A DNA stretch of 37,643 bases. It comes from a virus. Each line of letters starts with the position of its first letter. The stretch's first letter is position 1. Below are positions 13,453 to 37,643 of this stretch, piece after piece. The translations under genes were made by a program, and so were the position numbers. The notes under the pieces are model-generated. The model saw nothing but the letters and a program-made list of their open reading frames with translations, made no database searches and had not been told where the DNA came from. The stretch is from positions 1 through 37,643 of the IMG/VR virus record IMGVR_UViG_3300025120_000188. The stretch is one strand, 5' to 3'.

Positions 13453-15186
13453 TTATTGAACGGTATAAATAATTATCTCATCTTTCTTACCCTTAACTTT
13501 TATAGGGTCTAGATATCTAGTGGGTATATCAGAGTTCATAGCTGTGGTGTACCCAATTACTATATCCTCTCCTACTTCTTTAGTAGAACTCTCTAGCCTT
13601 GCAGCTAGATTAACAGCATCACCAATAGCAGAGTAATCAAACCTTGTATCACTTCCCATATTACCGACTACTGCCTCTCCTGTATTTATACCTATACCTA
13701 TTTCAATACCTAGTTTGGCTTCTGCCATATCTCGGTGGATTTGTAATGCTGCTTGGATGGCTTTGGTCTCATGGTCTTCAAGGTCTATTGGTGCATTAAA
13801 GATAGCCATCATTGCATCTCCAATATATTTATCAACCATACCGTCATACTTTTTAACTGCATTAGCTTGTATCGTTAATGCTTTGTTCATAATTTCTGTG
13901 ACTTCTTCAGGCTGTAATCTTTCTGATAAACTTGTAAAGCCTCTAACGTCTGTAAATAAAAACGTACAACGTCTTCTTTCTCCGCCTAACTTCAGAAGTT
14001 CAGGATTATCTTGTAGTTGTTTGACTTGTCTTGGGTCAAGATAATGTTCAAATTGTTTCTTGATTTGTTGTCTAAGTTTGTATTGAGTTCTAAAGTTTAA
14101 ATAGAATTGTAAGGTAGCAATAAGTGTCATACTTATTAGAGACCATGTAAAGTCTATCAAGATATTATAGCTTACAAAGTGATACTCCATATAGCCCATA
14201 AAAGAGAACAAACCTAAGAATGATACAACACCCTTAGTGATACCAAGATACTTTATTACAAGAGCTGTGAGTAAGCCTGAGACTATTAATAATAATAGTT
14301 CAACAAACAATCTATAGTCTGGTATTTGTGGTGTGTCCATCAACATACTTTCTGATAAAGCTGTTTGTATTTTATGAGGTTCTAACAAGCCTATAGGTGT
14401 TGCAAGTTGTGGTGATATACCCTTGGCTGTAAAACCTACAAAGACAAACTTACCTTCTACATTCATTTCAGATAGTGTTGTCTGTGGTGTGTCAACCCAA
14501 CTAATCCATTTACGTCCTAGACTATCAGTGGTAATGGGCGGAATACCTCTAACTCTAACCTGTTCTATTCCATTCAGATTTGTGACAATCTGATAAGTAC
14601 GACCACCTCCTAGTATTTTTAAAACTTCTGTTCCAAACGAAGCAACCCACCCATTATTAGTTTGTTGTAGTAAAGGTATTCTCCTTACTAAATTATCTAC
14701 ATCTACTGGTGCAGAGATAGCACCTTGACTAGCTGATTGTTTTAAAGGTTCTATGTTCTCTAAAAAGCCTTGAGCTTTTGGTAGAGATACTATTGGTCCT
14801 TTGATAACTGTACCATGTGTCTTAGGATAAATACCATTAGATATTTCAGGCATAGCTATGACACTTGGAGAACTTTGTAAGGCTTTAGAAAACTCATCAT
14901 CTCCACCCATTCTATCTGGATGTGGAAATAACATAACCCATCCTACACCTAATGCACCTTTGTTTATTATATCGTTATGAATCTTTGCAAGTGTTTCTCT
15001 AGGCAGAGGATATCCACCTTGTTCATCTAGGAATTGTTCGTCAATATTGAGGATTGTAAAGTATCCGGTAGGTTCTGGAGTTGTGACAAGAGCATCAAAA
15101 GTTTTAAGTCTTAGTACTTCTAATGGTACACTATTGAAGAGGAGAGGCAAAGTTAATAGAGTTAATAAGGTGATTGCCCACTTCAT
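13453..15186 (-). CDS. CHASE2-domain transmembrane class III adenylate cyclase
   Basis: This is predicted to be an inner-membrane sensor that makes cyclic AMP from ATP. An N-terminal hydrophobic anchor (about residues 3-20) leads into an extracytoplasmic CHASE2 region (about 25-285). Three membrane helices follow (about 292-311, 314-332 and 341-362), then a linker and the cyclase homology domain (about 404-577). The catalytic set is complete: metal aspartates D413 (FTDVRGF) and D457 (KYIGD), base-contact K453, and transition-state N526 and R530 (IGDAVNLAARLE). The second base-contact position is S519, a Thr/Ser variant seen in many bacterial enzymes, so AMP over GMP is likely but not certain. 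CHASE2 is a known extracytoplasmic sensor domain. It starts one base after the FecR gene, with GGAGA before the ATG. It lies last in the late operon and is rare cargo for a phage. Confidence 0.9.
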   Translation of the reverse strand: MKWAITLLTLLTLPLLFNSVPLEVLRLKTFDALVTTPEPTGYFTILNIDEQFLDEQGGYPLPRETLAKIHNDIINKGALGVGWVMLFPHPDRMGGDDEFSKALQSSPSVIAMPEISNGIYPKTHGTVIKGPIVSLPKAQGFLENIEPLKQSASQGAISAPVDVDNLVRRIPLLQQTNNGWVASFGTEVLKILGGGRTYQIVTNLNGIEQVRVRGIPPITTDSLGRKWISWVDTPQTTLSEMNVEGKFVFVGFTAKGISPQLATPIGLLEPHKIQTALSESMLMDTPQIPDYRLFVELLLLIVSGLLTALVIKYLGITKGVVSFLGLFSFMGYMEYHFVSYNILIDFTWSLISMTLIATLQFYLNFRTQYKLRQQIKKQFEHYLDPRQVKQLQDNPELLKLGGERRRCTFLFTDVRGFTSLSERLQPEEVTEIMNKALTIQANAVKKYDGMVDKYIGDAMMAIFNAPIDLEDHETKAIQAALQIHRDMAEAKLGIEIGIGINTGEAVVGNMGSDTRFDYSAIGDAVNLAARLESSTKEVGEDIVIGYTTAMNSDIPTRYLDPIKVKGKKDEIIIYTVQ

Positions 15187-15187
15187 G

Positions 15188-16312
15188 TTAGTCTCCTTGT
15201 GTTATTTTTATAGTAGAGTCTCCTCCACCATTAACTATTATCTGTGTACTCTTACCATTCTGTATCATTACAACGGTGTAAGCATTTGATTTATCTAAAT
15301 CTAATTTAATAGTATCTTCTAAAGCTTTGTAGAATGTTATGACGTTATCTGTCAAAAAAGTATTTATCTGAGTCTCACTATCGTATCCTACTTTAGTACC
15401 TTTTAAATCTATAGCAGTTTTTAAAATTGTTGAAGTTTGGTCTAGCTCATTAACATCTTCTATAATGTCTAACAAGTCTTCAAGAAAGTTTACATCAAGA
15501 TAATTAATGTCTAACTCTGTAAACTCTAAATTGTCTTCTGCAAGATAGTCTGTTTCTAAATCATCAAACTCAAGGAAGTCAACATCAAGACTACTAACAT
15601 TACTCCCTCCATCTTCTCCTTCATTTTGTTTTACTTCCCTAGGTGTATTTACAATTAACATGTTATCAATTAACTCTAGGGTTAAGTCAAGGATAACGGG
15701 ATTTGTTGGTTTAGTTTCAAACATAGAAACTGTAGTAGCTTGGTAAGGCTTGTTAAGAACTACCTGTCCCATAGCTGTTGCGACAACTATCTCTCCACTT
15801 GGAAGACCATCATCATCTGGTAATAATATAACTAAGCTTCTACCTAACTCATCTACAGTCACAGTAAAATCTGTACCACGTATACCAATCGTAGCACTTG
15901 GAGTATTGATAGTTATATTTTCTTTGTCTATTGTAGCTAACTTACCTGTGATAAATCTTGCAGTACCACTTGCAAATTGTAGAGCCATCTTAGATTTAGA
16001 AGGGTCTGGGTCATAGATAAATTCATCTATAATTAATTCAGAATGTTCAGTAAGTCTAACTTGACTGTCATCTAAAAAAGTAATGCCCAATCTCCCATTA
16101 GAAGTTTGGACATTATCGTAGCTGTTGATGTCTAGGTCTATAGAGGCTTGGAAGGTTTCGTCTAAGTCTTTAGGGACTTCTCTTACAACTCTACCTGTTC
16201 CATTTAGTTCAGTTATGTTGCCTATATTAGCAGCTTGTGCCTGTACCTTGGTCGTTTTGAATGACACAAACAGTACCATTAGAACCATTAGACGTAATAC
16301 GTAACCAGTCAT
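15188..16312 (-). CDS. FecR-domain secreted protein, 374 aa
   Basis: An N-terminal signal peptide (about 1-26, ending VQAQA) sends this protein to the periplasm. Residues about 30-160 form a FecR-type beta domain: LGITFLDDSQVRLTEHSELI, then ALQFASGTARFITGKLA and TPSATIGIRGTDFTV. The C-terminal part is acidic and leucine-rich, with short repeats (for example YLDVNFLEDLLDIIEDVN). Secreted or membrane FecR-domain proteins next to CHASE2 cyclases are a known bacterial pairing, and the two genes here are 1 bp apart. A likely job is to bind an envelope ligand and present it to the cyclase sensor, but that is inference. The first 86 nt overlap the curlin-like gene in another frame. In-frame ATGs at 16288 and 16279 would shorten the leader. 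Confidence 0.85.
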   Translation of the reverse strand: MTGYVLRLMVLMVLFVSFKTTKVQAQAANIGNITELNGTGRVVREVPKDLDETFQASIDLDINSYDNVQTSNGRLGITFLDDSQVRLTEHSELIIDEFIYDPDPSKSKMALQFASGTARFITGKLATIDKENITINTPSATIGIRGTDFTVTVDELGRSLVILLPDDDGLPSGEIVVATAMGQVVLNKPYQATTVSMFETKPTNPVILDLTLELIDNMLIVNTPREVKQNEGEDGGSNVSSLDVDFLEFDDLETDYLAEDNLEFTELDINYLDVNFLEDLLDIIEDVNELDQTSTILKTAIDLKGTKVGYDSETQINTFLTDNVITFYKALEDTIKLDLDKSNAYTVVMIQNGKSTQIIVNGGGDSTIKITQGD

Positions 16313-16943
16313 TATCTTGAGTACTCAGTTGATTTATATTAAAGGTTCTTGAATTACCCACTTGAGTTAATTTAAAGTACCCACCTGCAAACCCTTGACC
16401 TGTAAAGTTTACAGTGTTGTCATCTCCATCAACATTTACATCATTGGTTGCATCAGCATTATTAATATTAAAATCAAATGTGTTACCATCTCCATTAATA
16501 ACCCAGTCAACATCTGCATTACTTGCTAAAGATGTTGTAGCTAAGTCAAGTGTAAAAGTGTTTGTACCACCTGTTACATCTACATTAACATTAGAGCCAT
16601 CAGCACCATAAGTATTAGTAGGGTCTATCTGTACATTAAACACGTTGGTAGAACCATCAAACTCCCAAAAACCTACAAAGTTATCAGCAGTAATGTCTCC
16701 TAAAAATTTATTACTTGACCCTATTTGATTAATATCAATAGTCTGCACACCACCGTCTAAGTCTAATGCAGTCATTGACCCAGCAGCAGCAGTAGCACCA
16801 CCTATAATATTACCTGAACCAAGCTGTTCTGCATCTAAATTAAATGTAGCACCAGACTGGTCTATATATATTTCGTTATCAGCCCCGTATAGAAGTGATG
16901 CACTCATCATCACAACTAGGCTCATTAATTTTAAAGTTTTCAT
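16227..16943 (-). CDS. Curlin-like secreted protein, candidate CsgG/CsgF cargo
   Basis: This 238-residue protein has a clear signal peptide (MKTLKLMSLVVMMSASLLYG). The mature part is rich in Asn, Asp, Gly, Thr and Gln, with curlin-like Q-x-G-x-x-N motifs at Q40-N45 (QLGSGN) and Q73-N78 (QIGSSN) and a looser copy in LTQVGNSRTFNINQ. Repeated short beta strands with G-x-N-T-F turns (NGDGNTFDFNI, DGDDNTVNF) suggest a stacked beta-solenoid, as in CsgA. Two Cys residues lie in the last 11 residues (VCVIQNDQGTGTSC). The repeats are more irregular than in E. coli CsgA, so amyloid formation is an inference. It overlaps csgG by 65 nt and the FecR gene by 86 nt. Confidence 0.75.
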   Translation of the reverse strand: MKTLKLMSLVVMMSASLLYGADNEIYIDQSGATFNLDAEQLGSGNIIGGATAAAGSMTALDLDGGVQTIDINQIGSSNKFLGDITADNFVGFWEFDGSTNVFNVQIDPTNTYGADGSNVNVDVTGGTNTFTLDLATTSLASNADVDWVINGDGNTFDFNINNADATNDVNVDGDDNTVNFTGQGFAGGYFKLTQVGNSRTFNINQLSTQDNDWLRITSNGSNGTVCVIQNDQGTGTSC

Positions 16944-17733
16944 ATTTCCAATAGCCTCTCTCTATTCCAATATTTATTATATTTAATACCCCAGTTTCTA
17001 CAGCTTTTTGTAAAGCTATTGAAACACTTTCATTCTCTGATATACCACCTTCTATTTCTACTAGCTCAGTGCCAGTTTCAATAAAACGAAATACATCCTG
17101 AGAAACACTTGTTGATAAAATACTTTTGGATACTAATGTTTCCATAAGAACTTCACCGGTAGATACAGATACTAACCTTAAAGATATAGTAACTGTGTCT
17201 TCCCTAAACTGTTTACTTGTCCCAATACCTAAGTACCTTGCACCAGAACCTCCAGATTTTAGATTAGCTTCGTAACTAATTACTCCACCTTGGACTAACA
17301 ACCCTGCAAATAACAGTGGTTGCATCTTATTATCTTCTTTAAAATCTTTACGTGTGCTACGTATGAGTTGTCTTTCTTTTGTTAGGTCATCTAAACCTAC
17401 ACGTTCTACAACTCTAAAAAACTCTCCACCTGCTGTGTGCTTAAAAGCTCTAATAAGAAAAGCTTCAGGTGCTTGTGTTACAGCAGTACTAAACAAAGCA
17501 AAGGTACTATTACTTCTTCTTTGACCTGTTAAATCTCTAAAGCTATTAGGGTATATTGCTATCGTTGGTTTTACTTTAGCTGGTGGTAAATTTCTTAACT
17601 CTTCTGATTGTAAATCTAATGTAGAACTAGACTGGATTCTTTTAGTTAAAACTAAATCTCCACTCTCTTGTACTACTGCACAACTAGAAAGTAAAATTAC
17701 CAACAGGCAAAGATATAGTCGTTGTATTGCCAT
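16879..17733 (-). CDS. csgG: CsgG-like curli secretion channel lipoprotein
   Basis: This is predicted to form the outer-membrane secretion pore of the curli pathway. ATG 17733 is preferred; an adjacent GTG at 17736 is possible. The lipoprotein signal ends in lipobox LSSC with the acylated Cys at residue 18. Strong family blocks are FSTAV in the constriction region (about 81-85), SYEANLKSGGSGARYLGIG (about 153-171), VSTGEVL, KSILS, VFRFIE and the C-terminal VETGVLNIINIGIERGYW. The length of 284 aa is close to E. coli CsgG (277 aa). Against the E. coli constriction trio Tyr51, Asn55 and Phe56 only the Phe is clearly kept; Asn is replaced by Leu and the loop is one residue longer. It overlaps csgF by 50 nt and the curlin-like gene by 65 nt. 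Confidence 0.92.
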   Translation of the reverse strand: MAIQRLYLCLLVILLSSCAVVQESGDLVLTKRIQSSSTLDLQSEELRNLPPAKVKPTIAIYPNSFRDLTGQRRSNSTFALFSTAVTQAPEAFLIRAFKHTAGGEFFRVVERVGLDDLTKERQLIRSTRKDFKEDNKMQPLLFAGLLVQGGVISYEANLKSGGSGARYLGIGTSKQFREDTVTISLRLVSVSTGEVLMETLVSKSILSTSVSQDVFRFIETGTELVEIEGGISENESVSIALQKAVETGVLNIINIGIERGYWKYENFKINEPSCDDECITSIRG

Positions 17734-18178
17734 CACTATCCGTTATAGTTAAAGTTATTATTCCATCTTCCACGTTATAAACAATTGTATTGCCTTCTAA
17801 AGTTAATGTACCACTATCAGAAGGAACCTCACCAAACAAGTTCTCTACTAATTGTCTTGATAGCTGTGAGTATATACGTGATTCTAAGTTTCTTATAAAC
17901 CTTGCAAGAGTTGTGTTTTCTTTGTCTCTTTCTATCTGGTCTTGAAGTGCTTTAATCTCTGCCTTCAATGCTTCTTTACGATTAAACTCTTGATTCTGAA
18001 TAGTAAGATAATGTGAGCTAGTATTAATACCACTAAAGCTAGGACTCTTAAACTTAAATACTATCTCATCTGCAATGTTTCCTACAGACCAGAACATAAT
18101 TAACATAGACCAAAAGAACATACACCACTTGCAGTTCCTTGAAGTCTTTTCACTTTTAAATGTTGGTTTTAATTTCAT
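17684..18178 (-). CDS. csgF: CsgF-like curli assembly factor
   Basis: CsgF caps the CsgG channel at the cell surface and couples secretion to fibre nucleation. The mature start, after a signal peptide ending near residue 36 (GNIA), is DEIVFKFKSPSFSG. It matches the channel-inserting N-terminus of E. coli CsgF (F-x-F-x-x-P-x-F-x-G). A helical segment rich in Lys and Glu follows (about 65-110) and then a beta-rich C-terminus (TIVYNVEDGIITLTITDSDG). At 164 aa it is longer than E. coli CsgF (138 aa), mainly in the helical neck and the N-terminal leader. The start at 18178 overlaps the preceding 58-aa gene as ATGA; an internal Met20 would also leave a usable signal peptide. It overlaps csgG by 50 nt. 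Confidence 0.88.
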   Translation of the reverse strand: MKLKPTFKSEKTSRNCKWCMFFWSMLIMFWSVGNIADEIVFKFKSPSFSGINTSSHYLTIQNQEFNRKEALKAEIKALQDQIERDKENTTLARFIRNLESRIYSQLSRQLVENLFGEVPSDSGTLTLEGNTIVYNVEDGIITLTITDSDGNTTTISLPVGNFTF

Positions 18179-18351
18179 AATATTTTACTGTTTATCCAAA
18201 ACATAAATAACATAAATCCAAATACAATTACTTGTACTATAGAAGCTACAGTAATTTGCTTCATTGGATGTATGTCTACAATTTTTTCTATCCAAGATTC
18301 ACTTGGAGAAAGATTAACTACTTGTAATATTTTCTTATCGTCTATCTTCAT
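18175..18351 (-). CDS. 58-aa single-pass membrane protein before csgF
   Basis: The frame starts at ATG 18351 and ends in a TGA that overlaps the csgF ATG (ATGA). The first 33 residues are soluble and charged (MKIDDKKILQVVNLSPSESW). Residues 34-53 form one membrane helix (TVASIVQVIVFGFMLFMFWI). Its own start overlaps the 29-aa gene in the same way, so the three are probably coupled. It could belong to the lysis group (spanin-like or antiholin-like) or to the curli module; nothing in the sequence decides. Confidence 0.6.
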   Translation of the reverse strand: MKIDDKKILQVVNLSPSESWIEKIVDIHPMKQITVASIVQVIVFGFMLFMFWINSKIL

Positions 18352-18437
18352 TGTAGTTGTTCTAATACACTTATAATAAATAAGAATATAAATATACTTA
18401 TAACTGGTATTTCAAACTTAATCTTTTCTTTGGTCAT
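18348..18437 (-). CDS. 29-aa membrane microprotein
   Basis: ATG 18437 opens 29 codons to TGA 18350-18348, which overlaps the next ATG. After MTKEKIKFE comes one hydrophobic helix (IPVISIFIFLFIISVL) and then EQLQ. Its start lies 20 bp inside the end of the 115-aa gene. The exact ATGA junction and clean membrane topology support it; the length and weak SD do not. It may be a small lysis or envelope peptide. Confidence 0.45.
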   Translation of the reverse strand: MTKEKIKFEIPVISIFIFLFIISVLEQLQ

Positions 18438-18765
18438 CTCTATCTGCCTTTGCAATTTTATCTATATCTACTAAGTTGGGTACGCCTAGTAAAGTTTTCA
18501 AGAGTACATCTTGTCTAATACTTTGATTATCCATAGCTCTTACTCTATCAATTAAACTTACTATAATACCATATTGACTATCAAGCTTTGTAGATACTCT
18601 TTCTTCCATAGTATCTAAAGATGTTTGTACTTTATCATCTAAAGTATCTAGTTTAGTTTCCATCCCATCAATAATTCTATTGATAAGTTTCCATACAAAC
18701 ATACCTAAACCTAAAGCTGCTGCAATAGGAAAGCCTAGTTCGGTTATTACTGCTACTGCATCCAT
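18418..18765 (-). CDS. Membrane-anchored coiled-coil protein, 115 aa (possible holin or lysis accessory)
   Basis: The start overlaps the stop of the holin-like gene (TAATG). One membrane helix spans about residues 10-28 (LGFPIAAALGLGMFVWKLI). It is followed by a long heptad-like stretch (METKLDTLDDKVQTSLDTME, then VSTKLDSQYG) that should form a parallel coiled coil, and a charged tail (KADRDDQRKD). Its position directly after the holin gene suggests a lysis accessory or second holin. The 80-aa protein at 30490 has the same anchor-plus-coiled-coil plan. Confidence 0.65.
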   Translation of the reverse strand: MDAVAVITELGFPIAAALGLGMFVWKLINRIIDGMETKLDTLDDKVQTSLDTMEERVSTKLDSQYGIIVSLIDRVRAMDNQSIRQDVLLKTLLGVPNLVDIDKIAKADRDDQRKD

Positions 18766-19238
18766 TAGTCTTTTTGTGTGTTAGAAGCTCCGAAGTAAAA
18801 AGATATAACAGCACTTGCTAAACCACCAAGATATCCTAGTACAAGGTTTATAAGGGCTTCAGAGTTCTGCTCTGGTGGTTGTAAAGTAACAAGGAATATA
18901 TATCCCATGAATCCACCTACAACAGCTATACCCATTATACGGGCTGTCCAGTCTTTACTGAATTTATTCCTAGCATCTTGACCATCAGCTACTTCTAACT
19001 TAAATACATCTACATCAAGCTCTTTCATTTGAACTTCAAAATCTTGTTCAGCTTTTTTAAGTTCTAACATTTGTTCAGGTGTAGCTTCAGCTAATCCTTT
19101 CTCTATAGCTTTTGGAGTATTGGGAACACCTAACACATCAGCTATCATATTAGCTGCCATTCCACCCATAGGTCCACCTAATGCAGTTCCTAATGTAGGT
19201 GCAACAGCTCCAACTATGTTCTTTAACATATTTTTCAT
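18765..19238 (-). CDS. Probable holin of the three-membrane-segment (gene-transfer-release) type, 157 aa
   Basis: The N-terminus has a Gly/Ala-rich hydrophobic segment (APTLGTALGGPMGGMAANMI). A charged helical middle follows (TPEQMLELKKAEQDFEVQMK, then DGQDARNKFSKDW) and two strong membrane helices (about 102-120 and 129-150). This layout, with the AEQDFE motif and the DARNK...W region, matches the GTA_holin_3TM family as I remember it. Holins open the inner membrane at lysis. It lies two genes after the lysozyme gene, the expected lysis neighbourhood. The start overlaps the 49-aa gene (ATGA). Confidence 0.75.
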   Translation of the reverse strand: MKNMLKNIVGAVAPTLGTALGGPMGGMAANMIADVLGVPNTPKAIEKGLAEATPEQMLELKKAEQDFEVQMKELDVDVFKLEVADGQDARNKFSKDWTARIMGIAVVGGFMGYIFLVTLQPPEQNSEALINLVLGYLGGLASAVISFYFGASNTQKD

Positions 19239-27166: not shown

Positions 27167-30100
27167 CTATTTTCCACCAAAGATGGTATTAATTAATGTT
27201 CCTACAGAACTTATATTGTTTTTCCAATTTTCAGCAGACCCGCCTTCGTTAGCTAAAGCCTGTGCATATAATTGAGCTTTTCTGTTTTCTTCATTTTCTG
27301 CAGCTTGAAAAGTATAGTTAGCTTGGTCTCTTAGTTCTTGCCATAAAAATGATTGAGCTTGTGAAGTCATGTTAAAAGCATTCTGTACATTCTGCATAGC
27401 AACTTGATTAGCTGCTGCAGTATTTATAGTATTAGCCTGTCTTCTCCATGCTAAATTAGATTGTTCAATAGCCTGTGCATTAGCTGTATTAAACTTATCT
27501 CTGTCAAAAGCTACTTGCTCATTAAATTGATTAACTTGATTGACCATAGCAGCATTAGCTTTTTCTAAATCAGCTTCTACTTGAAACTCTAAAGCATCTC
27601 TAGCATTTGTTTGTGAAACATTAAATTGTTCTGCAGTATTTAATTGATTAGCATTAAACTGTTCTATTTGTGCAGCTAGGCTAGACATAAATTGATTAGT
27701 TTGATTTTCACTAGAAGCATTAAATTGAGCAGCAGCGTTATTAGCAGATTGATTAGATAATAGTTGTTGTTGTTCCATTTGTGACTTTAACATACTAGCT
27801 TGTTGTCTATTGCTAAGATTAGCCATATCCATAGATAAGAATGACTGAGCATTAGTAACTGCTAGTTTTGTTCTTTGGTCAACAGTTGCTAAATCTAAAG
27901 ATGCCATAGCTGTAGCATTTTGCATAATAGTTTGTTGCTCTGCATCAAAGTTTGCAAGAGTAGCTGTTTGCATAAACTTACTATTAGCTAACACTACTTG
28001 TTGCTCGTTATTAAAGTTAGCCATGTCCATATTAGCTACAGTATTTGCATTAGCCATTGCTCTTTGTTGGTCTACATTAAGATTAGCTATTCCCATTTGT
28101 TGAGCTAATTCAGCATTCTTAATATTAACTTGCATAGTCTTATTAAGATTTGCTAACTCTGTTTGTTGTTCAGCATTTAAGTTATCAGCACTAGCTTGGT
28201 TAAGAGCTGACAAGTTTGCAAGTTTCATCTGTTGGTCATTAGATAAATTAGCTAAATTCATTTGCTGTTTAAAATCAGCATTCTTAGCTATAAACTCTGC
28301 AGCTATATTCATCTCTGCTAATCTTTCTTGATTCTCAGCAGTCATGTTTTCACGTTCTGTCTGATTCATTATTTCAAGATTTGCAAGTTCCATCTGTTGC
28401 TCATTACCTAAGTTTTGAGCATTCATAGCTTGTTGATTTTGAGTATTAAGAACAGCAGCTTGTTGTCTATTTTGTAAATTCTGTGTTCTTGTTTGTTGCT
28501 GTTGCTGAGCAGTAGTCATTACAGCTTCTTGTTTAAACTGACTTTGTAGAACTCCCATCTGTTGAGCAAACTGTGCGGTTTGACTTGCAGCATCTTGACG
28601 ATTTGCTAAGTTCTGCATTCTTATTTGTTGAATTTGTGAAGCTTCTTGTAAGTTAGCTTGTTGTTGATTACTTAAATTTTGTGAAGCTCTTTGTTGTAAA
28701 GCTTGTGCATTACTCTGAGCCATTGGCATAGCTGATTGAATAATAGCATTGAATAAAGAATCTCTACCTACTGTAGAAACACTTAATCCTCTAGCAGCCA
28801 TATTAGAGTTGATAGCATCTACAGCAGGTCTAGCCCATGCAGGTATGTTGCCGTCTTCTAAACCACCCAATAAGCTTTCCATTTGTGAAGATACTAAAGC
28901 TTCTTCTGGTAAAGCTGCAATAGCTGCAACAACTTCAGGGTCTGCTCCGGTATCTAACTGAGCTTCAACAGTTGCAGGGTCTTCTACAATAGCTGATGTT
29001 ATTTCTGGTGGTAATTCTGAAACTTCTGCAATCATTGAAGCAGCAGCACCTTTTGCAGCAGTACCTTTTACTGTTCTACGTTTAGCAGCTTCATAACCTA
29101 CTTGGTCTACAATTTGAGCAGCAGCTCCAACTGCAGCTTCTCCTGTTAATGCTTCTCTTTGTTTAACTTCTGCATCAGGAGTTTCTGATACTTTCTCTGG
29201 AGTTAAATCATCTACTTCAGGAACAAAAGCACCAGCAGATAATATGCCTTCAACTGTATCTGCTTTAGAAGCATCGATAGCTTTTTGAGAAATTTCTTTA
29301 GCTACTGCAGGTCCTGATAATTTACTAATCTCGTTTACTTTAGCAATTGCATCATCTGATAATTCTCCTATAATAGGTTCTATATCAGGAATAGCTGTAA
29401 CAAGTTCAGCTTTGTATGTTTCAGCTTGTAATTGTTCTGGAGTTTTTGCAGTTGTTACATCTTCTATTGTTGCAGCTTCTGGAGCAGCACCTACTTCAGC
29501 TAGTTCAGCTTCAAGAGCTTCTCTTTCTTCCATAATCTTAGCTTCACCTAACTCTCCTACTTCTACTTGTTGAGGAGCTTCAGCCATAGGTATGCCTTCC
29601 ATATTACCTTGTAATATTTGTTCAGCTCTACCTCTTGCAGTTACTAATTTTTTTTCTACTTCATCTTTCGGAGGTGTTTCACCAATACCAGTTCCAGTAC
29701 CTGCTTGTTGTCCTGTATTAACCCAACCATTAGGAGTATATACATATAAAAAACCATCTACAATTTTTGTGTCTCCTACTGAAGGTCCTGTACCACCTGT
29801 ACCACCTGTACCACCTGTACCACCTGTACCACCTGTACCACCTGTACCACCTGTACTACCTATACTATCTGTATATTGACCTACTAATCCGGGAGGAAGA
29901 CTTACAAAAGGATTTATTTGATTAGATTGATTAGAAAATTTTCCAACTGGTTTAGCGACTTGTGGTTGAGCTGTTTGATTACCACCACTTTTTAATGCTG
30001 ATATTTCTTCAGGAGTTGTAGCGGTTTGTTGATTACTCGTATTTACATTAGGTATTATTTGATTATTACTTACATTTTGATTAGCTAACTCTACCTCTTC

Positions 30101-30466
30101 TCTACCAATAAACATTTGGTCAGAGCCTTTATCGGTTGTTGGAGCTTGTCTAAATGTAGTATCTATGTTGTTTGAAGCAGTACCTAAGTTTTCTATAAAT
30201 GTTGCTTGAGGTTGAATAACATTAGGTCTTTTAGATTCTATTGGAGCTTGAGTAAATGTAGGTTGTTGTTTTGTAGTACTAGGAGTACTTACCATAGGTT
30301 CTTCTTCTCTTTCTATAGACATAGAAGGTTTTTTACGATTTATAGGAGCTTTTTGTATACCACCTACAGCAGCTTTAACTCTACCACCTTTAGACATATC
30401 AACTCTACCCTTAGTAGTTAATTTCTTTTTATACTGTTTTAATTTGTTATTATTTTTTTTATCCAT
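27167..30466 (-). CDS. Gln/Asn-rich repetitive virion protein, 1099 aa
   Basis: Four zones are visible. The N-terminus is basic then disordered (about 1-200). A Gly-Gly-Thr linker follows at about 205-226. An acidic Ala/Glu/Val/Pro-rich region runs to about 560. The long Gln/Asn-rich region (about 570-1050) is built from degenerate units such as NLSNDQQMKLANLSALNQAS and NLNAEQQTELANL, which should form a very long helical rod. There are no catalytic motifs. The gene follows the fibre and precedes the ejection-protein candidates, so it is probably structural: a tail or core rod, or a length-setting protein. A near-consensus minus-strand promoter lies 21 bp upstream of its start. Confidence 0.6.
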   Translation of the reverse strand: MDKKNNNKLKQYKKKLTTKGRVDMSKGGRVKAAVGGIQKAPINRKKPSMSIEREEEPMVSTPSTTKQQPTFTQAPIESKRPNVIQPQATFIENLGTASNNIDTTFRQAPTTDKGSDQMFIGREEVELANQNVSNNQIIPNVNTSNQQTATTPEEISALKSGGNQTAQPQVAKPVGKFSNQSNQINPFVSLPPGLVGQYTDSIGSTGGTGGTGGTGGTGGTGGTGGTGPSVGDTKIVDGFLYVYTPNGWVNTGQQAGTGTGIGETPPKDEVEKKLVTARGRAEQILQGNMEGIPMAEAPQQVEVGELGEAKIMEEREALEAELAEVGAAPEAATIEDVTTAKTPEQLQAETYKAELVTAIPDIEPIIGELSDDAIAKVNEISKLSGPAVAKEISQKAIDASKADTVEGILSAGAFVPEVDDLTPEKVSETPDAEVKQREALTGEAAVGAAAQIVDQVGYEAAKRRTVKGTAAKGAAASMIAEVSELPPEITSAIVEDPATVEAQLDTGADPEVVAAIAALPEEALVSSQMESLLGGLEDGNIPAWARPAVDAINSNMAARGLSVSTVGRDSLFNAIIQSAMPMAQSNAQALQQRASQNLSNQQQANLQEASQIQQIRMQNLANRQDAASQTAQFAQQMGVLQSQFKQEAVMTTAQQQQQTRTQNLQNRQQAAVLNTQNQQAMNAQNLGNEQQMELANLEIMNQTERENMTAENQERLAEMNIAAEFIAKNADFKQQMNLANLSNDQQMKLANLSALNQASADNLNAEQQTELANLNKTMQVNIKNAELAQQMGIANLNVDQQRAMANANTVANMDMANFNNEQQVVLANSKFMQTATLANFDAEQQTIMQNATAMASLDLATVDQRTKLAVTNAQSFLSMDMANLSNRQQASMLKSQMEQQQLLSNQSANNAAAQFNASSENQTNQFMSSLAAQIEQFNANQLNTAEQFNVSQTNARDALEFQVEADLEKANAAMVNQVNQFNEQVAFDRDKFNTANAQAIEQSNLAWRRQANTINTAAANQVAMQNVQNAFNMTSQAQSFLWQELRDQANYTFQAAENEENRKAQLYAQALANEGGSAENWKNNISSVGTLINTIFGGK
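29791..29853 (-). repeat. Seven tandem 9-bp units encoding (Gly-Gly-Thr)n
   Basis: On the plus strand TACCACCTG repeats seven times without error from 29791 to 29853; the eighth unit is degenerate. Read on the minus strand it encodes Gly-Gly-Thr units in the 1099-aa protein. A perfect short tandem repeat in frame is prone to slippage and could vary in length between relatives without breaking the frame. Confidence 0.9.
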
Positions 30467-31017: not shown

Positions 31018-34000
31018 TTATTCTCCTTTTAAAGTTTTTATTTCGGCTTTTAATTTATCTACTTGCGTAGATAGTTCTTGTACTGCTTTGATTAAAGGAT
31101 GGACAAACATCTCTTGAGAGATTCTTTGTGAGCCATCTTCATCTTCTAACCAACCACCAAAAGTATCTACGCCTTCTACGTCTAATGCTGCTTTTACTTC
31201 TTGGGCTATCATTCCGTGTAATCTTGTATCAGTGTCCATGTGATTTTCAGTTTCAGAATAATCGTTGTAATGTTTAGGAAACTCACTATTAGGTCTCCAG
31301 TTAAATTTAACCGTTCTTAAATTATTTATAAAACTTAATCCTAAAGAATCATCTTCTATATTGGTCTTTTTATTTACATCTGAACTTCTACTAAAAGATG
31401 CATTAGTTGTAAATACATTTGAAACAATATTACTAGCTTTACCAAATTTAAAATTATTACTTGTACCTGTTATCCCTACACCTATCGTAATGGAATTAGA
31501 TGAATCATGTGCAGCATCAGCATTGACACCAACACAAATATTATTTGTACCAGCTTGAATTGCATCACCAGCATTAACTCCAATACAAGTATTTTCACCG
31601 CCTGTTGTTATAGCTGAACCTGCATTATATCCAAATGCAGTGTTACTGGTAGATGTTGTTTGTGTTTGTAGTGTTCCATAACCAAAACCTGTATTAAAAG
31701 AACCAGTAGTATTAGAATCTAAAGAAAAAATACCACCTGCTGAATTTGAATGTCCTGTAGTGTTTGTTGCTAAAGCATCTTTACCCAAGGCAGTATTAGA
31801 AGCACCTGTAGTGTTTGATAGTAATGCTAAAAAGCCTACTGCTGTGTTATTTGCAGCTGTAGTGTTTGCCGCTAATGAACCTTTACCTAATGATGTATTT
31901 CCTGCACCTGTAGTGTTTGCTATTAAAGAAGCCGAACCCATAGCTACGTTATTAGCACCTGTGGTGTTTGCTCCTAAAGCATTTACACCTACTGCTGTGT
32001 TATCGGCTGCTGTAGTGTTAGCGTCTAATGCAGAAGTACCTACAGCTACGTTATTAGCACCTGTAGTATTGGCTGCTAAAGCATTATCACCTACTGCTGT
32101 ATTATTATCTGCTGTAGTGTTTGCAGCTAAACTGTTATGTCCTACACAAACATTTTTAGCTCCTGTGGTATTTGCTAACATAGCTTGTTGACCAACTGCT
32201 ACACATAAATGCCCTGTAGTATTTGCTTTCATGGATTCCCAACCAACAGAAGTATTATTATACCCTGTGGTGTTTGATGTCATAGCTGAACCACCTACTG
32301 CTACTTGTTGAGCACCTGTAGTGTTTGCTGTAAGAGCTGCAAAACCTATTGCTGTGTTGTTATTGGCTGTTGTATTAGCTCTTAATGCTGAATCTCCTAT
32401 ACCTATATTGCTATGTCCTGTTGTATTTACGAACATAGATTTATGTCCAATACTAACATTACTATCTGCTGTAGTGTTATCGGTTAAAGCAAATTTACCA
32501 AGTGCTACATTATAGTTTCCTGTGGTATTTGCGTCTAAGGCGTTTGCACCTACTGCTGTATTTTCAGCACCAGTAGTATTTGCTAACAAAGCATCTTTAC
32601 CAACTGCTGTATTATTATCTGCTGTAGTGTTTGCTGTTAAAGCACTTTGCCCAATTGCTACGTTACTAGAACCTGTTGTGTTAGCATCTAATGTTCTGTA
32701 ACCCATAGCTACGTTTCCTGAACCTGTTGTATTAGCATTCATACATTCTGTACCAACTGCGGTGTTGTTACTTCCAGTATTACAAGTATCTAATGCTAAA
32801 TAACCAACTGCTACATTGTCCGAAGCTGTATTTAATTTTAATGCTTCAAAACCCATAGCGGTGTTTCTAGAACCTGTGGTAACTGTTTTTAATGAATTTG
32901 CACCAACTGCTGCGTTATTAGTACCTGTTGTATTTGCTCCTAAAGAACTTTTACCAACTGCGGTGTTGTTGTTAGCAGTTGTATTAGCATCTAGTGCTGC
33001 TTGACCTACTGCTGTGTTTCCATCACCAGTTGTATTGGCTGCCATAGTATTTTGTCCAACAGCAACATTAGAATGTCCTTCTGTATTTGCTGTTAAAGAA
33101 TCTCTACCTAAAGCTGAATTACTATATCCTGTAGTATTTGCATCAAGTGAAGTTGCACCTACTGCAACATTATCTGCACCTGTTGTATTTGCTCCTAATG
33201 CACTTGAACCTACTGCTGTGTTATTAGATGCTGTAGTATTAGCTGATAAAGCATCTTTACCCAAAGCAGTATTAGAAGCACCTGTTGTATTTGCTCCTAA
33301 TCCACCATGACCAACTGCGGTGTTATTTGAAGCTGTTGTATTAGCATTTAAGGCACTTCTTCCTATTGCAGTATTTTGTGAACCAGTAGTGTTTAGAGTA
33401 AGAGATATAGCACCGAGTGAGGTATTATTAGAACCAGTGGTGTTTGTGTATGCAGATTGCAGACCCATAGCTGTATTGTTTGAACCCGTTGTCAGTTTTG
33501 TTAAAGACTGATTACCAACACCAGTATTACCATCACCTTCTGTTAAGTCATCAAATACTTCCCAACCTAATCCAGTATTATTAGAAGCAGTAGATAAAGT
33601 ACCTGTACCAGCATCATTGCTAATAAGTATGCTGTTTGAGAAGTTTGTAATATTAGAAGCTATACCTACGCCATTGATTGTACCTGAAAAAGTTGAATTA
33701 CCAGAACTATTAATACTCAACCTTTCTGAACCTGCTGTAGAGAAAGCAAGAGTACCGTCAGATGGTAAGTACATACCTGCACCACGACCACCATTAGAAC
33801 CTATTTGACCATCAAATCCAAAAGCAGGATATTGTGGGTCGCTAATATCTCCAGCAGCCATTACTGCTACTTGCGAATCTGCTGCAGTTGCTTTAACTGT
33901 ACCTGTTACGTCTATGCCTGTTGAGTTTGTTTGGAGTTTAGTAGCTCCTCCACTTTTTATAAAAGCATTCCCATTAATTAAATTAAGAGCATCTTGTCCT

Positions 34001-36624
34001 GATGAATTTTGAAGATAAATGTTAGTGCCTTTGATAAATAAATTGCCTGTATCATTAGACTCACTAATATAACTATTAGAGCCATCATGATAAATTTCTA
34101 AATCTGGACCAGCTCCTAAAATTACTTTAGCATTATCTGCAAAAGTTGCATTACCTGCGTGAGCTGTTGTAGATGCAAAATCTACAGCACCATCTATATC
34201 TACTACGTCTAGGTTAGTAGTTCCGTCTACATCTATATCGCCTGAAATGTCTAAGGATGTTGCAGTAATGCTTGAATTAAACGTAGCCGCACCATCTGAG
34301 GCTATAACAAATTTATTAGAAAAACTTGACCCCGGAGTTTGGAACACTATTGACCCTGCATCAACACCTATAAAACCAGAAGTTCCATCATCGTCTTTAA
34401 TTTGGATATATGCCGCACCATCTGTTGCTTCAAATGTTGCGACATTTCCTGTGCCATTAACCTGCAATTCAGCGTTGGCTGTTAAAAGACCTCCAACCGC
34501 TAGAGTACTAGCCATATCTACAGCTCCGTCTATATCAACAACATCTAAGTTAGTAGTACCGTCAACATCTATATCACCTGAGATGTCTAGTGAAGCTACT
34601 ACAGCAGTACCTGTAAGAGTAGGAGCAGTTAGTGTTTTGTTTGTTAATGTTTCTGTTCCAGTTATTAACGAAAGAGTACCAGTAGCATTAGGTAAACTAA
34701 TTGTTCTATCAGCTGTTGGGTCTACTACGCTAAGTGTAGTTTCGTGTGCGTCTGCTGTAGCTCCTTCAAATATAATAGCATTTGAAGCTTCCATAGTAAC
34801 TGTATCTACTTGAGTAGTTGTACCTGCTACAGTAAGTTTAGGAACTAATAGTTCTCCTGTACTTGGATTATATCTTAAAGCACCTGTGTCATCTAATAAA
34901 CCATTTGATTCATTGTGAAAAACTACAGGGAAATTTGTATTCGCTGTACTGTCTGTAACTGTTGTTGTTGCAGCTAGAGTAGCTGTTGCAGCGTTACCTG
35001 TTGTATCTTGATTACCTGCAGCATTTACACCCGGTAAATTAATATTAGCACTACCATCAAAACTTACACCACCAATAGTTCTTGCAGTTGTTAAAGTAGC
35101 TGCTGAACCTGTAGTATTTTGATTAAGTGTACCAACTGTAAAGTCTAAAGTACCATCACTATCTTCGTAAGCTACTGTAATACCACTTTCAGTATTACTA
35201 GATACCATAGCTCCTACAGTATCTTGAATAACTTCTGATAAATCTATGTTAGCTGTACCATCAAATGATACACCATGAATTGTTCTAGCTGTTGCTAAAG
35301 CTGTAGCTGTAGCTGCTAAACCTGTTGTATCTTGGTTAAGTGTACCGATTACAAAGTCTAATGTATTGTCTGAGTCTTCGTAAGTAACTGTAATGTTAGT
35401 CTCTGTATTAGAAGATACCATAGCACCTACAGTATCACTAATTGTTTCTGCTAAAGTTACACCACCAATAGTAATTGCATCGGCTTCTAAAGTACCATCA
35501 ATGTCTGCATTACCTGATATGTCTAAGGTTGCAGCGTCTAGTTCACCACTAATAGTAATATTTCTACCACCAGTAATATCTATGTTTGCATCTGTAACGA
35601 TTGCTTTACTTGCTATAACTGTTCCGTTAGTTATACCGTCTATTAAATTTATGTCTGCTGCACTAGCTGTAACTGTTGTTCCGTTTAAAGATAGTGCATC
35701 TGTTTCAAGTGTACCATCTATGTCTACGTTTCCTGATATATCTAAACTTGCTGCTGTTATTTCACCACCAACTGTAAGAGTTGTAGCCATGTCTACAGCA
35801 CCATCAATGTCCACGACATCAAGATTAGTAGTACCATCTACATCTAAATCACCGTTGAAGTCTACGTTACCTGCAACTGCAAGAGTTGTAGCCATATCAA
35901 CAGCTCCATCTATATCAACAACATCTAAATTAGTTGTACCATCAACATCAATGTCTCCAGAAATATCTAAGCTTGTACCAGTTAGTACGCCTGTAACACC
36001 TAAAGTTCCTGCGATTGTAGCATTTACATCTACATCTAATGTGTCTATATGTGCAGTACCGTCTAAGTATAAGTCTCTCCACTCTTGTGTAGAGCTACCA
36101 AGGTCATATGCACCGTCATCGTCTGGTATAATGTTAGAGTCTACGTCAGCACCAAAGACTACGTTATCAGTAGCTGCATCACCCATAGTGATTGTACCAC
36201 CATTAAAAGTTGTAGTACCTGTGACTGTTAAATTACCACCTACTGCAACATTACCAGTTGTAGTAATTGAATCTATATAAGCATTTTTAAAGTATAAAGA
36301 ACTAGTACCTAAGTCTACATCACTATCTGTAACAGGTATGATAGCTCCATCGGCTATATATAACTGTTGTACAGAACTGCTTGATACTTGTACATAAAAT
36401 TCTATAAAGTTATTAGTAGTATCTATTAAGACTTTATTGTTTGGAGAAGTTTCACCAGCATCACCAATTAATCCTATAACTGGTCCACTTGCTGCTGTAC
36501 CATCATGACTGTGACCTGATGTATTACTAAATGCATTTACTAACTGGTTATATTCATTATTAAATAATGCAGAAGTAATTGTATCTCCGTCTGAAAAAGA
36601 ACTTTGTCTTGTATATCCTGCCAT
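31018..36624 (-). CDS. Giant tail fibre / adhesin with YadA-head-like repeats and S74 chaperone domain, 1868 aa
   Basis: This is the receptor-binding fibre. The N-terminal part (about 1-190) includes SGHSHDGTAASGPVIG and DSDVDLGTSSLYFKNAYIDS, a particle-attachment and early shaft type seen in marine phage fibres. Residues about 200-850 hold repeated beta-shaft blocks, LDISGDIDVDGTTNLDVVDI and variants. Residues 1013-1708 form 41 near-tandem 17-residue units of the type NNTAVGxxALxANTTGA, as in trimeric autotransporter (YadA-like) heads. The C-terminus (about 1740-1868) is a peptidase S74 intramolecular chaperone with S1748-D and K1753 (SDVNKKTNI), followed by FINNLRTVKFNW, HGMIAQEV and a coiled-coil end. 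S74 domains trimerise and then cut themselves off. The start overlaps a 27-aa gene (TAATG). Confidence 0.92.
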   Translation of the reverse strand: MAGYTRQSSFSDGDTITSALFNNEYNQLVNAFSNTSGHSHDGTAASGPVIGLIGDAGETSPNNKVLIDTTNNFIEFYVQVSSSSVQQLYIADGAIIPVTDSDVDLGTSSLYFKNAYIDSITTTGNVAVGGNLTVTGTTTFNGGTITMGDAATDNVVFGADVDSNIIPDDDGAYDLGSSTQEWRDLYLDGTAHIDTLDVDVNATIAGTLGVTGVLTGTSLDISGDIDVDGTTNLDVVDIDGAVDMATTLAVAGNVDFNGDLDVDGTTNLDVVDIDGAVDMATTLTVGGEITAASLDISGNVDIDGTLETDALSLNGTTVTASAADINLIDGITNGTVIASKAIVTDANIDITGGRNITISGELDAATLDISGNADIDGTLEADAITIGGVTLAETISDTVGAMVSSNTETNITVTYEDSDNTLDFVIGTLNQDTTGLAATATALATARTIHGVSFDGTANIDLSEVIQDTVGAMVSSNTESGITVAYEDSDGTLDFTVGTLNQNTTGSAATLTTARTIGGVSFDGSANINLPGVNAAGNQDTTGNAATATLAATTTVTDSTANTNFPVVFHNESNGLLDDTGALRYNPSTGELLVPKLTVAGTTTQVDTVTMEASNAIIFEGATADAHETTLSVVDPTADRTISLPNATGTLSLITGTETLTNKTLTAPTLTGTAVVASLDISGDIDVDGTTNLDVVDIDGAVDMASTLAVGGLLTANAELQVNGTGNVATFEATDGAAYIQIKDDDGTSGFIGVDAGSIVFQTPGSSFSNKFVIASDGAATFNSSITATSLDISGDIDVDGTTNLDVVDIDGAVDFASTTAHAGNATFADNAKVILGAGPDLEIYHDGSNSYISESNDTGNLFIKGTNIYLQNSSGQDALNLINGNAFIKSGGATKLQTNSTGIDVTGTVKATAADSQVAVMAAGDISDPQYPAFGFDGQIGSNGGRGAGMYLPSDGTLAFSTAGSERLSINSSGNSTFSGTINGVGIASNITNFSNSILISNDAGTGTLSTASNNTGLGWEVFDDLTEGDGNTGVGNQSLTKLTTGSNNTAMGLQSAYTNTTGSNNTSLGAISLTLNTTGSQNTAIGRSALNANTTASNNTAVGHGGLGANTTGASNTALGKDALSANTTASNNTAVGSSALGANTTGADNVAVGATSLDANTTGYSNSALGRDSLTANTEGHSNVAVGQNTMAANTTGDGNTAVGQAALDANTTANNNTAVGKSSLGANTTGTNNAAVGANSLKTVTTGSRNTAMGFEALKLNTASDNVAVGYLALDTCNTGSNNTAVGTECMNANTTGSGNVAMGYRTLDANTTGSSNVAIGQSALTANTTADNNTAVGKDALLANTTGAENTAVGANALDANTTGNYNVALGKFALTDNTTADSNVSIGHKSMFVNTTGHSNIGIGDSALRANTTANNNTAIGFAALTANTTGAQQVAVGGSAMTSNTTGYNNTSVGWESMKANTTGHLCVAVGQQAMLANTTGAKNVCVGHNSLAANTTADNNTAVGDNALAANTTGANNVAVGTSALDANTTAADNTAVGVNALGANTTGANNVAMGSASLIANTTGAGNTSLGKGSLAANTTAANNTAVGFLALLSNTTGASNTALGKDALATNTTGHSNSAGGIFSLDSNTTGSFNTGFGYGTLQTQTTSTSNTAFGYNAGSAITTGGENTCIGVNAGDAIQAGTNNICVGVNADAAHDSSNSITIGVGITGTSNNFKFGKASNIVSNVFTTNASFSRSSDVNKKTNIEDDSLGLSFINNLRTVKFNWRPNSEFPKHYNDYSETENHMDTDTRLHGMIAQEVKAALDVEGVDTFGGWLEDEDGSQRISQEMFVHPLIKAVQELSTQVDKLKAEIKTLKGE
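31501..33588 (-). repeat. 41 near-tandem 51-bp units in the fibre gene
   Basis: Reading the minus strand from 33588 to 31501, 41 consecutive units fit in frame; 40 have 17 residues and one (GSRNTAMGFEALKLNT) has 16, giving exactly 2088 nt. Unit consensus is about G-A-x-N-T-A-V-G-x-x-A-L-x-A-N-T-T. Two alternating kinds can be seen, units starting GA/GS and units starting AN/AD/AS. The first two and the last four units are the most diverged, as expected at the ends of a beta-roll. Confidence 0.9.
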
Positions 36625-36707
36625 TATGCACTCTCCAATGTTTCTATTCTAGTTTTTAAATTGTCTATTATTTTTTGTTGTTCTTGTATAACTTTGGTTA
36701 TTGCCAT
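36624..36707 (-). CDS. 27-aa coiled-coil microprotein before the fibre gene
   Basis: ATG 36707 has AGGAG about ten bases upstream and opens 27 codons to a TAA that overlaps the fibre ATG (TAATG). The product (MAITKVIQEQQKIIDNLKTR and on to TLESA) is one amphipathic heptad helix. It resembles the helical end of the fibre after its S74 domain (LSTQVDKLKAEIKTLK). The good SD and exact junction support translation. It could be a chaperone or trimer seed, or only a coupling leader. Confidence 0.55.
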   Translation of the reverse strand: MAITKVIQEQQKIIDNLKTRIETLESA

Positions 36708-36713
36708 TTGTTT

Positions 36714-37643
36714 TTATCTCCTGCCTGAAGGTATAAAGTCTACATAAAAACCATTAATTGTATATGGTGCTTTTGTATCGTCACTTATAATTGTAAAATT
36801 GTTACTTGTCCCGCTTCCCTGTAATGGAACTCTTATTAAAGGATTATCTCCACCACCGAAGACGTTTGTATTAAATAAAGCATCTCCAAACTTTGAAGGT
36901 GGATTAATAACTCCTAAATCAAACAAATCTGGTGGTTGTGGTATATCTGTATTACCATAATCAAATCTAACTTGTACATCTGGTTCTGTTATACCTTCGG
37001 AACTTGCTGAAACTCTTACATAGTGTAAAGTTTTTAAAGTTCCTAAATCACCATAGTCATAGTTAGGTGTTTCATATCTTGCTAATATGTTAGCACCATC
37101 AAAATTACTACCTATATCGTGTTGATAAACATATCCGTTTGTATCACCATGATAATATTGTTCTACATTATTACTATCAAATCCTGAACCTATTGCAGTA
37201 ACTTCTAAACTTCTTGTCTCTGACCACTGAAACCCATCAGGTCTTAGTGTTCCTATAATTCCTTTTTGTTGTGTTTGTTCTAAACTTGTATCTGTATAAA
37301 ATAATCTGTATTGTGATTTTTCTCTTAATACAACACTATTTATTACAAATGTATTTATGTTTTCTGCTAGTTCAGTTACTAAAGGTTGTATAGCCTTACT
37401 AACTGTACCTAACTCAACGTCACCAATTCTCGCTGTACCAGCAACTGTTCTTAAACCATCTGGTGCTAAAAATATTAAGTCACCACCAATCTCTTGAATA
37501 CTATAACCACTTAAACAACCTACGTTTTTAGTAACAGGTACAATAGCTATATTACTTGAATCATTTATATTTATTAATTTAAATATACTGTTAGTACAAA
37601 ATATAAATAACTCATTACGAAATCCTCTGATTCCTTCTATCTG
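36714..37643 (-). CDS. C-terminal part of a tail structural protein, probably tail tubular B / nozzle-like
   Basis: The frame is open from the right window edge to TAA 36716-36714, 309 residues without a stop. An internal TTG at 36926 is not a real start. The sequence has repeated beta blades: RGFRNELFIFCTNSIFKL, then SIQEIGGDLIFLAPDGLRTV, GIIGTLRPDGFQWSETRSLE and HDIGSNFDGANILARYETP. This is propeller-like, as in the platform of T7 gp12-type nozzle proteins. It lies directly before the fibre gene, where tail tubular proteins sit in T7-like phages. The N-terminal part lies outside the window, so the assignment stays tentative. Confidence 0.55.
   Translation of the reverse strand, partial: QIEGIRGFRNELFIFCTNSIFKLININDSSNIAIVPVTKNVGCLSGYSIQEIGGDLIFLAPDGLRTVAGTARIGDVELGTVSKAIQPLVTELAENINTFVINSVVLREKSQYRLFYTDTSLEQTQQKGIIGTLRPDGFQWSETRSLEVTAIGSGFDSNNVEQYYHGDTNGYVYQHDIGSNFDGANILARYETPNYDYGDLGTLKTLHYVRVSASSEGITEPDVQVRFDYGNTDIPQPPDLFDLGVINPPSKFGDALFNTNVFGGGDNPLIRVPLQGSGTSNNFTIISDDTKAPYTINGFYVDFIPSGRR

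Follow-up and report, generated by a model that had tools for sequence, protein, structure and literature searches.

We analysed a 37,643-base virus record as a whole, hereafter the window, which probably derives from a marine podovirus of the HTVC023P type of pelagiphages. One of its genes is an ATG-initiated tail-fibre ORF on the minus strand that encodes 1868 residues and takes up 14.9% of the record, in agreement with the share of about 15 percent given by an earlier sequence-only reading. That reading divided the protein into shaft repeats, 41 short units and a C-terminal S74 chaperone, and each of these parts is confirmed by our analysis. The features of the gene are as follows.

31018–36624, minus strand: tail-fibre gene, 1868 aa (ORF and PHROGs)
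36271–36624, minus strand: conserved N-terminal piece, aa 1–118 (best segment 70–92% identical in the 80 best viral loci)
33580–36270, minus strand: shaft with internal repeats of 101 nt and 51 nt, aa 119–1015
35040–35304, minus strand: shaft block, 95.5% identical to locus L013 at a 75-residue offset, with flanks at 36% and 27%
31492–33579, minus strand: array of 41 units of 17 residues each (one of 16), aa 1016–1711 (unit scoring and beta-solenoid models)
32902–33183, minus strand: 282-nt block in units 8–14, identical to units 18–24 of the L003 fibre
31562–31719, minus strand: 158-nt block in units 37–40, 96% identical to units 20–23 of L085
31018–31383, minus strand: Peptidase_S74 intramolecular chaperone, aa 1748–1868, with Ser1748, Asp1749 and Lys1753 (Pfam PF13884)

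In PHROGs the fibre falls among tail spike and virion structural families (E ≤ 1e-112), and NCBIfam holds no family for it or for four other window proteins. The N-terminal piece likely serves attachment to the tail. This part of the protein matches Pelagibacter phage HTVC033P, whose gp66, a putative tail fiber protein, resembles the N-terminal and shaft regions of the window fibre in a joined match over aa 1–428 (21% of the query, 44.9% identity) that stops short of the array. Within the shaft, the 101-nt repeat occurs in four copies with 77–100% identity to the reference copy and the 51-nt repeat in three; a link of 36 residues joins the end of the array to the S74 domain.

The 41 units follow one another at a spacing of 17 residues, broken by a single unit of 16. 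Forty of them were used to build a unit matrix, against which they score 15.8 to 35.8, while the best score in 200 shuffles of the fibre protein has a median of 5.3 and a 95th percentile of 9.9; this scoring is partly circular, as the same units are in the matrix, and the 17-residue spacing is independent of it. Across 95 distinct arrays comprising 1830 units, the Gly at position 5 is close to 100% conserved and the Asn and Thr at positions 1 and 13 exceed 90%; variation is greatest at positions 6, 7, 10, 16 and 17, with entropies of 3.2–3.8 bits. The sequence-only reading called these units YadA-like, a description that holds for the predicted fold of the best-modelled coils and fails for the sequence. 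At E ≤ 1 the window protein is not matched by the YadA_head family PF05658, which recognises just one of the 61 members of alignment A1 (E 0.042). The C-terminal membrane anchor PF03895 is likewise absent among the Pfam matches of the fibre at E ≤ 1, the C-terminus being occupied by S74.

Structural modelling coupled with structure comparison supports a long beta-solenoid, as had been predicted under the name of beta-roll. A model of aa 1440–1868 from 61 aligned sequences reaches a mean pLDDT of 85.5, with block means above 90 over residues 101–280, and places a strand every 17 residues. VIA-align ranks the BpaC head first (Z 20.0, rmsd 5.3, 287 aligned), and also recovers CbpF (Z 15.0), YadA (Z 13.5, rmsd 2.4, 142 aligned) and UspA1 (Z 13.2); these scores are re-alignments of chains picked by Foldseek, which by itself finds YadA at E 1.3, and generic solenoids also score high against the model (CsgA 14.8, an ice-binding protein 14.4, GlmU about 12). 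For the last coils the models support a trimeric-autotransporter head fold, with a beta-roll common to BpaC, CbpF, YadA and UspA1. The window fibre differs from trimeric autotransporters in its 17-residue unit, in having neither PF05658 nor the YadA membrane anchor, and in its S74 C-terminus. The adhesin-head prediction is limited to those last coils: the whole-array model, built from 18 sequences and weaker (mean pLDDT 74.7), ranks beta-helix tailspikes first (Z up to 16.4), which we take to be right-handed. This lower-confidence model speaks against a single fold along the whole array, and the first 30 or so units may belong to either fold class. A search of PDB chains with the single sequence of the array plus S74 returned nothing meaningful (two matches, E > 1).

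The S74 domain begins at about aa 1748 and scores 32.9 bits against a cut-off of 22; PF13884 matches all 61 members of alignment A1 at E ≤ 0.1. Relatives for the S74 alignment (60 sequences) were filtered from 102 ORFs with an S74 match, and none of the 61 aligned sequences departs from Ser1748, Asp1749 and Lys1753. We take this conserved Ser-Asp...Lys set to be the catalytic residues at the S74 cleavage site. Run against PDB chains, a profile of the array plus S74 finds only S74 relatives at E ≤ 0.001, among them the ICA domain of MyRF (E 8.5e-07) and a tail-fibre protein from a phage (E 0.00019). Foldseek pairs the S74 part of the model with MyRF ICA and with the intramolecular chaperones 3gw6 and 3gud, all at E above 0.02. 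Family membership and the invariant residues together point to self-cleavage at or next to Ser1748, in keeping with the self-cleaving chaperone proposed earlier for the end of the fibre.

An array followed by S74 is a known and ordinary architecture, found in many phages and bacteria, and the suggestion that the combination is unusual is not supported. Matches to the fibre by tblastn occur in 149 phage records, and BFVD contains 97 viral proteins at E ≤ 0.001, several of them named intramolecular chaperone or S74 proteins. Among 80 of the 110 confirmed bacterial or archaeal genome loci there are 82 array ORFs with their own stop codon, 48 of them with S74 and the longest with 120 units. Tail genes of cultured marine phages share the layout: Methylophilales phage Venkman gp55 and Pelagibacter phages HTVC112P gp48 and HTVC111P gp52 carry, like the window, a 17-residue array and then S74, with 32, 28 and 29 scored units. 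These proteins are shorter than the window fibre (742, 761 and 816 aa between stops, in the same order), and their best joined match, 46–47% identical, involves array residues only and leaves the window N-terminus uncovered. In a different type of phage, the tail spike gp2.52 of Bacillus phage SPO1 matches both the array region and the S74 end (31.9% identity over 35% of the query).

Descriptions of YadA domains in such phages predate our analysis. A 2014 report describes a pelagiphage tail fibre that terminates in a YadA domain and lies in a region of weak recruitment (PMC3909814), and a 2020 report describes structural proteins of marine myophages that contain YadA domains (PMC7029224). The 2014 fibre resembles that of the window in its adhesin-type C-terminal domain within a region of low metagenomic recruitment and differs in belonging to phage cluster C24 and in having a T7-like N-terminus; the relevant passages of that paper mention neither the number of units nor their exchange, nor an S74 chaperone, in this fibre. 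Two further observations concern cellular records. Bacteroidetes and Ignavibacteria ORFs (L173, L170 and L175) carry up to 120 units of this 17-residue type without an S74 match, and several of their ends look alike. L167, a contig assigned to a Candidatus Pelagibacter MAG, encodes a 35-unit array with S74 (E 5.8e-46) and is perhaps phage DNA binned with its host.

The number of units varies widely among relatives. Complete arrays are found in 64 of the 102 ORFs with an S74 match and hold 1 to 54 scored units, counts that depend on the threshold, as units below 6 bits are missed and gaps of 34–38 residues in some relatives may hide one. The N-terminus of the window fibre is shared by 83 ORFs, 41 of which have their own stop. 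Twelve of these 41 contain at least five units (range 11–53). Of the 29 others, four are accompanied within their locus by a distinct array ORF, and 25 have an array neither in the ORF nor elsewhere in the locus as an ORF of its own. Outside the fibre, the locus most like the window (L014, 86.4% DNA identity, among five loci with more than 4,800 aligned bases) encodes a fibre ORF of 1106 aa that is devoid of units.

Comparison of arrays at the DNA level suggests that phages swap blocks of coils between fibres. We identify a block of 282 nt that is identical between units 8–14 of the window and units 18–24 of L003, with flanks at 63% and 46%; against the 104 other array genes the next best value is 67% and the median 62%. 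The distance from the beginning of the array to the block is 132 aa in the window and 302 aa in L003, a difference of ten units, and that from the block to the end of the array is 470 and 506 aa, respectively. In both genomes the identity breaks off at either end of the block, and the crossovers fall in the conserved core of the units. The two contigs are about 86–87% identical in DNA in the fibre N-terminus and in the genes on the other side of the fibre, and 74% in the upstream gene; because these surroundings are so much less alike, the block looks more recent than the split of the lineages. Its exact middle is present in one viral contig, L003.

Further tracts extend this pattern beyond a single pair. 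Blocks in the window shaft have counterparts at different offsets in L013, L012 and L097, and a tract in the S74 region is shared with L082. Loci L104 and L105, with 17 and 13 scored units, have end tracts of 98.5–99.7% DNA identity around a middle of 56% protein identity; L154 and L160 share an end tract at 98% and are about 57% identical in part of the middle; and L096 and L114 have a block common to units 14–18 and 39–43. A seed-and-extend scan of 105 array genes (36-nt exact seeds, tracts of at least 60 nt) yields 23 bounded tracts inside arrays, which are not independent and reduce to about nine pairings once mutually repeating contigs are merged. In a blastn screen neither the window nor the interior of any array yielded a shared tract, probably because extended alignments fell under the identity filter. 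The earlier proposal that recombination could change the repeat number gains support from these exchanged blocks and from the variation in unit number; a constant number with no sign of recombination, named beforehand as the outcome that would speak against it, is not what the relatives display. Among the publications listed by literature searches, judged mostly by their listing and the start of the abstract, we recognise no description of coil-block exchange in S74 fibres. As judged from the sequences, exchange between arrays is a real and the more interesting detail of an otherwise ordinary architecture.

We propose, with reasonable though not full confidence in the account as a whole, that the gene encodes a long tail fibre with a docking N-terminus, a 41-coil solenoid, a releasable S74 domain and an array that recombines. 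The N-terminus would dock on the virion, and the 41 one-coil units would build up a beta-solenoid that is probably trimeric, as are the heads of trimeric autotransporters. The S74 domain would trimerise and register the chains and then cut itself off at or next to Ser1748, and upon its release the array would become the exposed tip, with the variable coil positions 6, 7, 10, 16 and 17 as its likely contact surface. The sequences show recombination within the array, whether or not the coils stay in register; it would take place between co-infecting phages and draw on the conserved core that adjacent coils have in common. Such exchange of blocks would alter the number of coils without breaking frame or fold, with possible consequences for adsorption and, as suggested earlier, perhaps for reach or host range.

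A less probable but still credible reading is that the array acts as a mere passive spacer or as shaft, with receptor binding placed elsewhere, in a different fibre or in a tail protein, and the number of units setting length only. The regularity of the units and their strongly conserved core would suit a spacer, and the 25 relatives whose locus lacks any array show that it is dispensable. A spacer, however, sits poorly with an array that would form the distal end after S74 release, with the concentration of variability at five coil positions, and with blocks that appear to be exchanged in the manner of host-recognition modules, points that may suggest receptor contact but do not prove it.

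Replication slippage or recent tandem duplication within one genome is improbable as the main source of change in unit number. The DNA identity of units is slightly higher within arrays than between them (0.550 vs 0.511; 0.592 vs 0.541 for the window), and because of this difference we conclude that within-array duplication also seems to have played a part at some time. Against slippage as the main process, neighbouring units are no more alike than distant ones, identity at lag 1 showing no excess; exact repeats within the window array reach 32 nt, and those in the 105 array genes 42 nt at most; and these genes contain no within-gene tract of at least 60 nt (36-nt exact seeds), a test biased by short-read assembly, which hides perfect recent duplicates. 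Least probable is a chimeric assembly of the array or the exchanged block: these are metagenomic contigs and neither of the window's two block junctions turns up in another viral contig (0 and 0), but one false join would not give a block bounded on both sides in two genomes, cultured phages carry arrays of 28–32 units, and final assembly graphs commonly use words longer than 32 nt, so that misassembly, which had been raised as a possible undoing of the repeat count, appears unlikely, as does repeat collapse because no exact internal repeat is longer.

Returning to a recombining fibre tip, we tentatively extend the proposal beyond the window, as an idea that we hold with well under even confidence: the coil arrays of marine phages may form a shared pool, in which out-of-register exchange through the coil cores makes combinatorial mosaics, and tip and length are remade with no dedicated enzyme. 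The slightly greater likeness of units within arrays than between them speaks against a pure form of such a pool. The cells that a phage is able to enter are determined by its tail fibres. If the idea is correct, phages of very abundant ocean bacteria could change both tip and length in one recombination event, and the fibre tip would consist of interchangeable coils, folded in any number by a chaperone that then leaves. The evidence already at hand makes coil exchange testable with long-read viromes.

The window also carries a curli cluster, and its co-occurrence with an adhesin-like fibre had been read as a hint of an unusual focus on cell-surface structures. Pfam places CHASE2-cyclase, FecR, CsgG and CsgF at 13453–18178, in the published order; a CsgA-like protein at 16227–16943 is assigned by position alone and is without a Pfam match. 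A scan for the histidine kinase of published clusters did not find it. Of the three ORFs next to csgF, the two covered by the scan (18418–18765 and 18765–19238) have no kinase match; the third, at 18175–18351, encodes 58 aa. Such T8SS/curli clusters are published for HTVC023P-type pelagiphages (PMC9599517) and for pelagimyophages (PMC7029224), the former being probably the phage group of the window itself. Among 28 records, comprising the window and the 27 longer records of 80 N-terminal loci, CsgG is present in 12, namely three of six with an array and nine of 22 without (Fisher p = 1.0; all of these records may be fragments). We reject a link between curli genes and arrays on this lack of association in the records searched.

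Two further features were noted alongside these results. A 9-nt repeat at 29787–29873 (9.7 copies, 94% matches) encodes a Gly-Gly-Thr run within a 1099-aa minus-strand ORF at 27167–30466, whose product is without a PHROGs match. In record G003, to which locus L017 belongs, the CsgG match at 36478–37123 is split over two frames and perhaps marks a broken or frameshifted gene.
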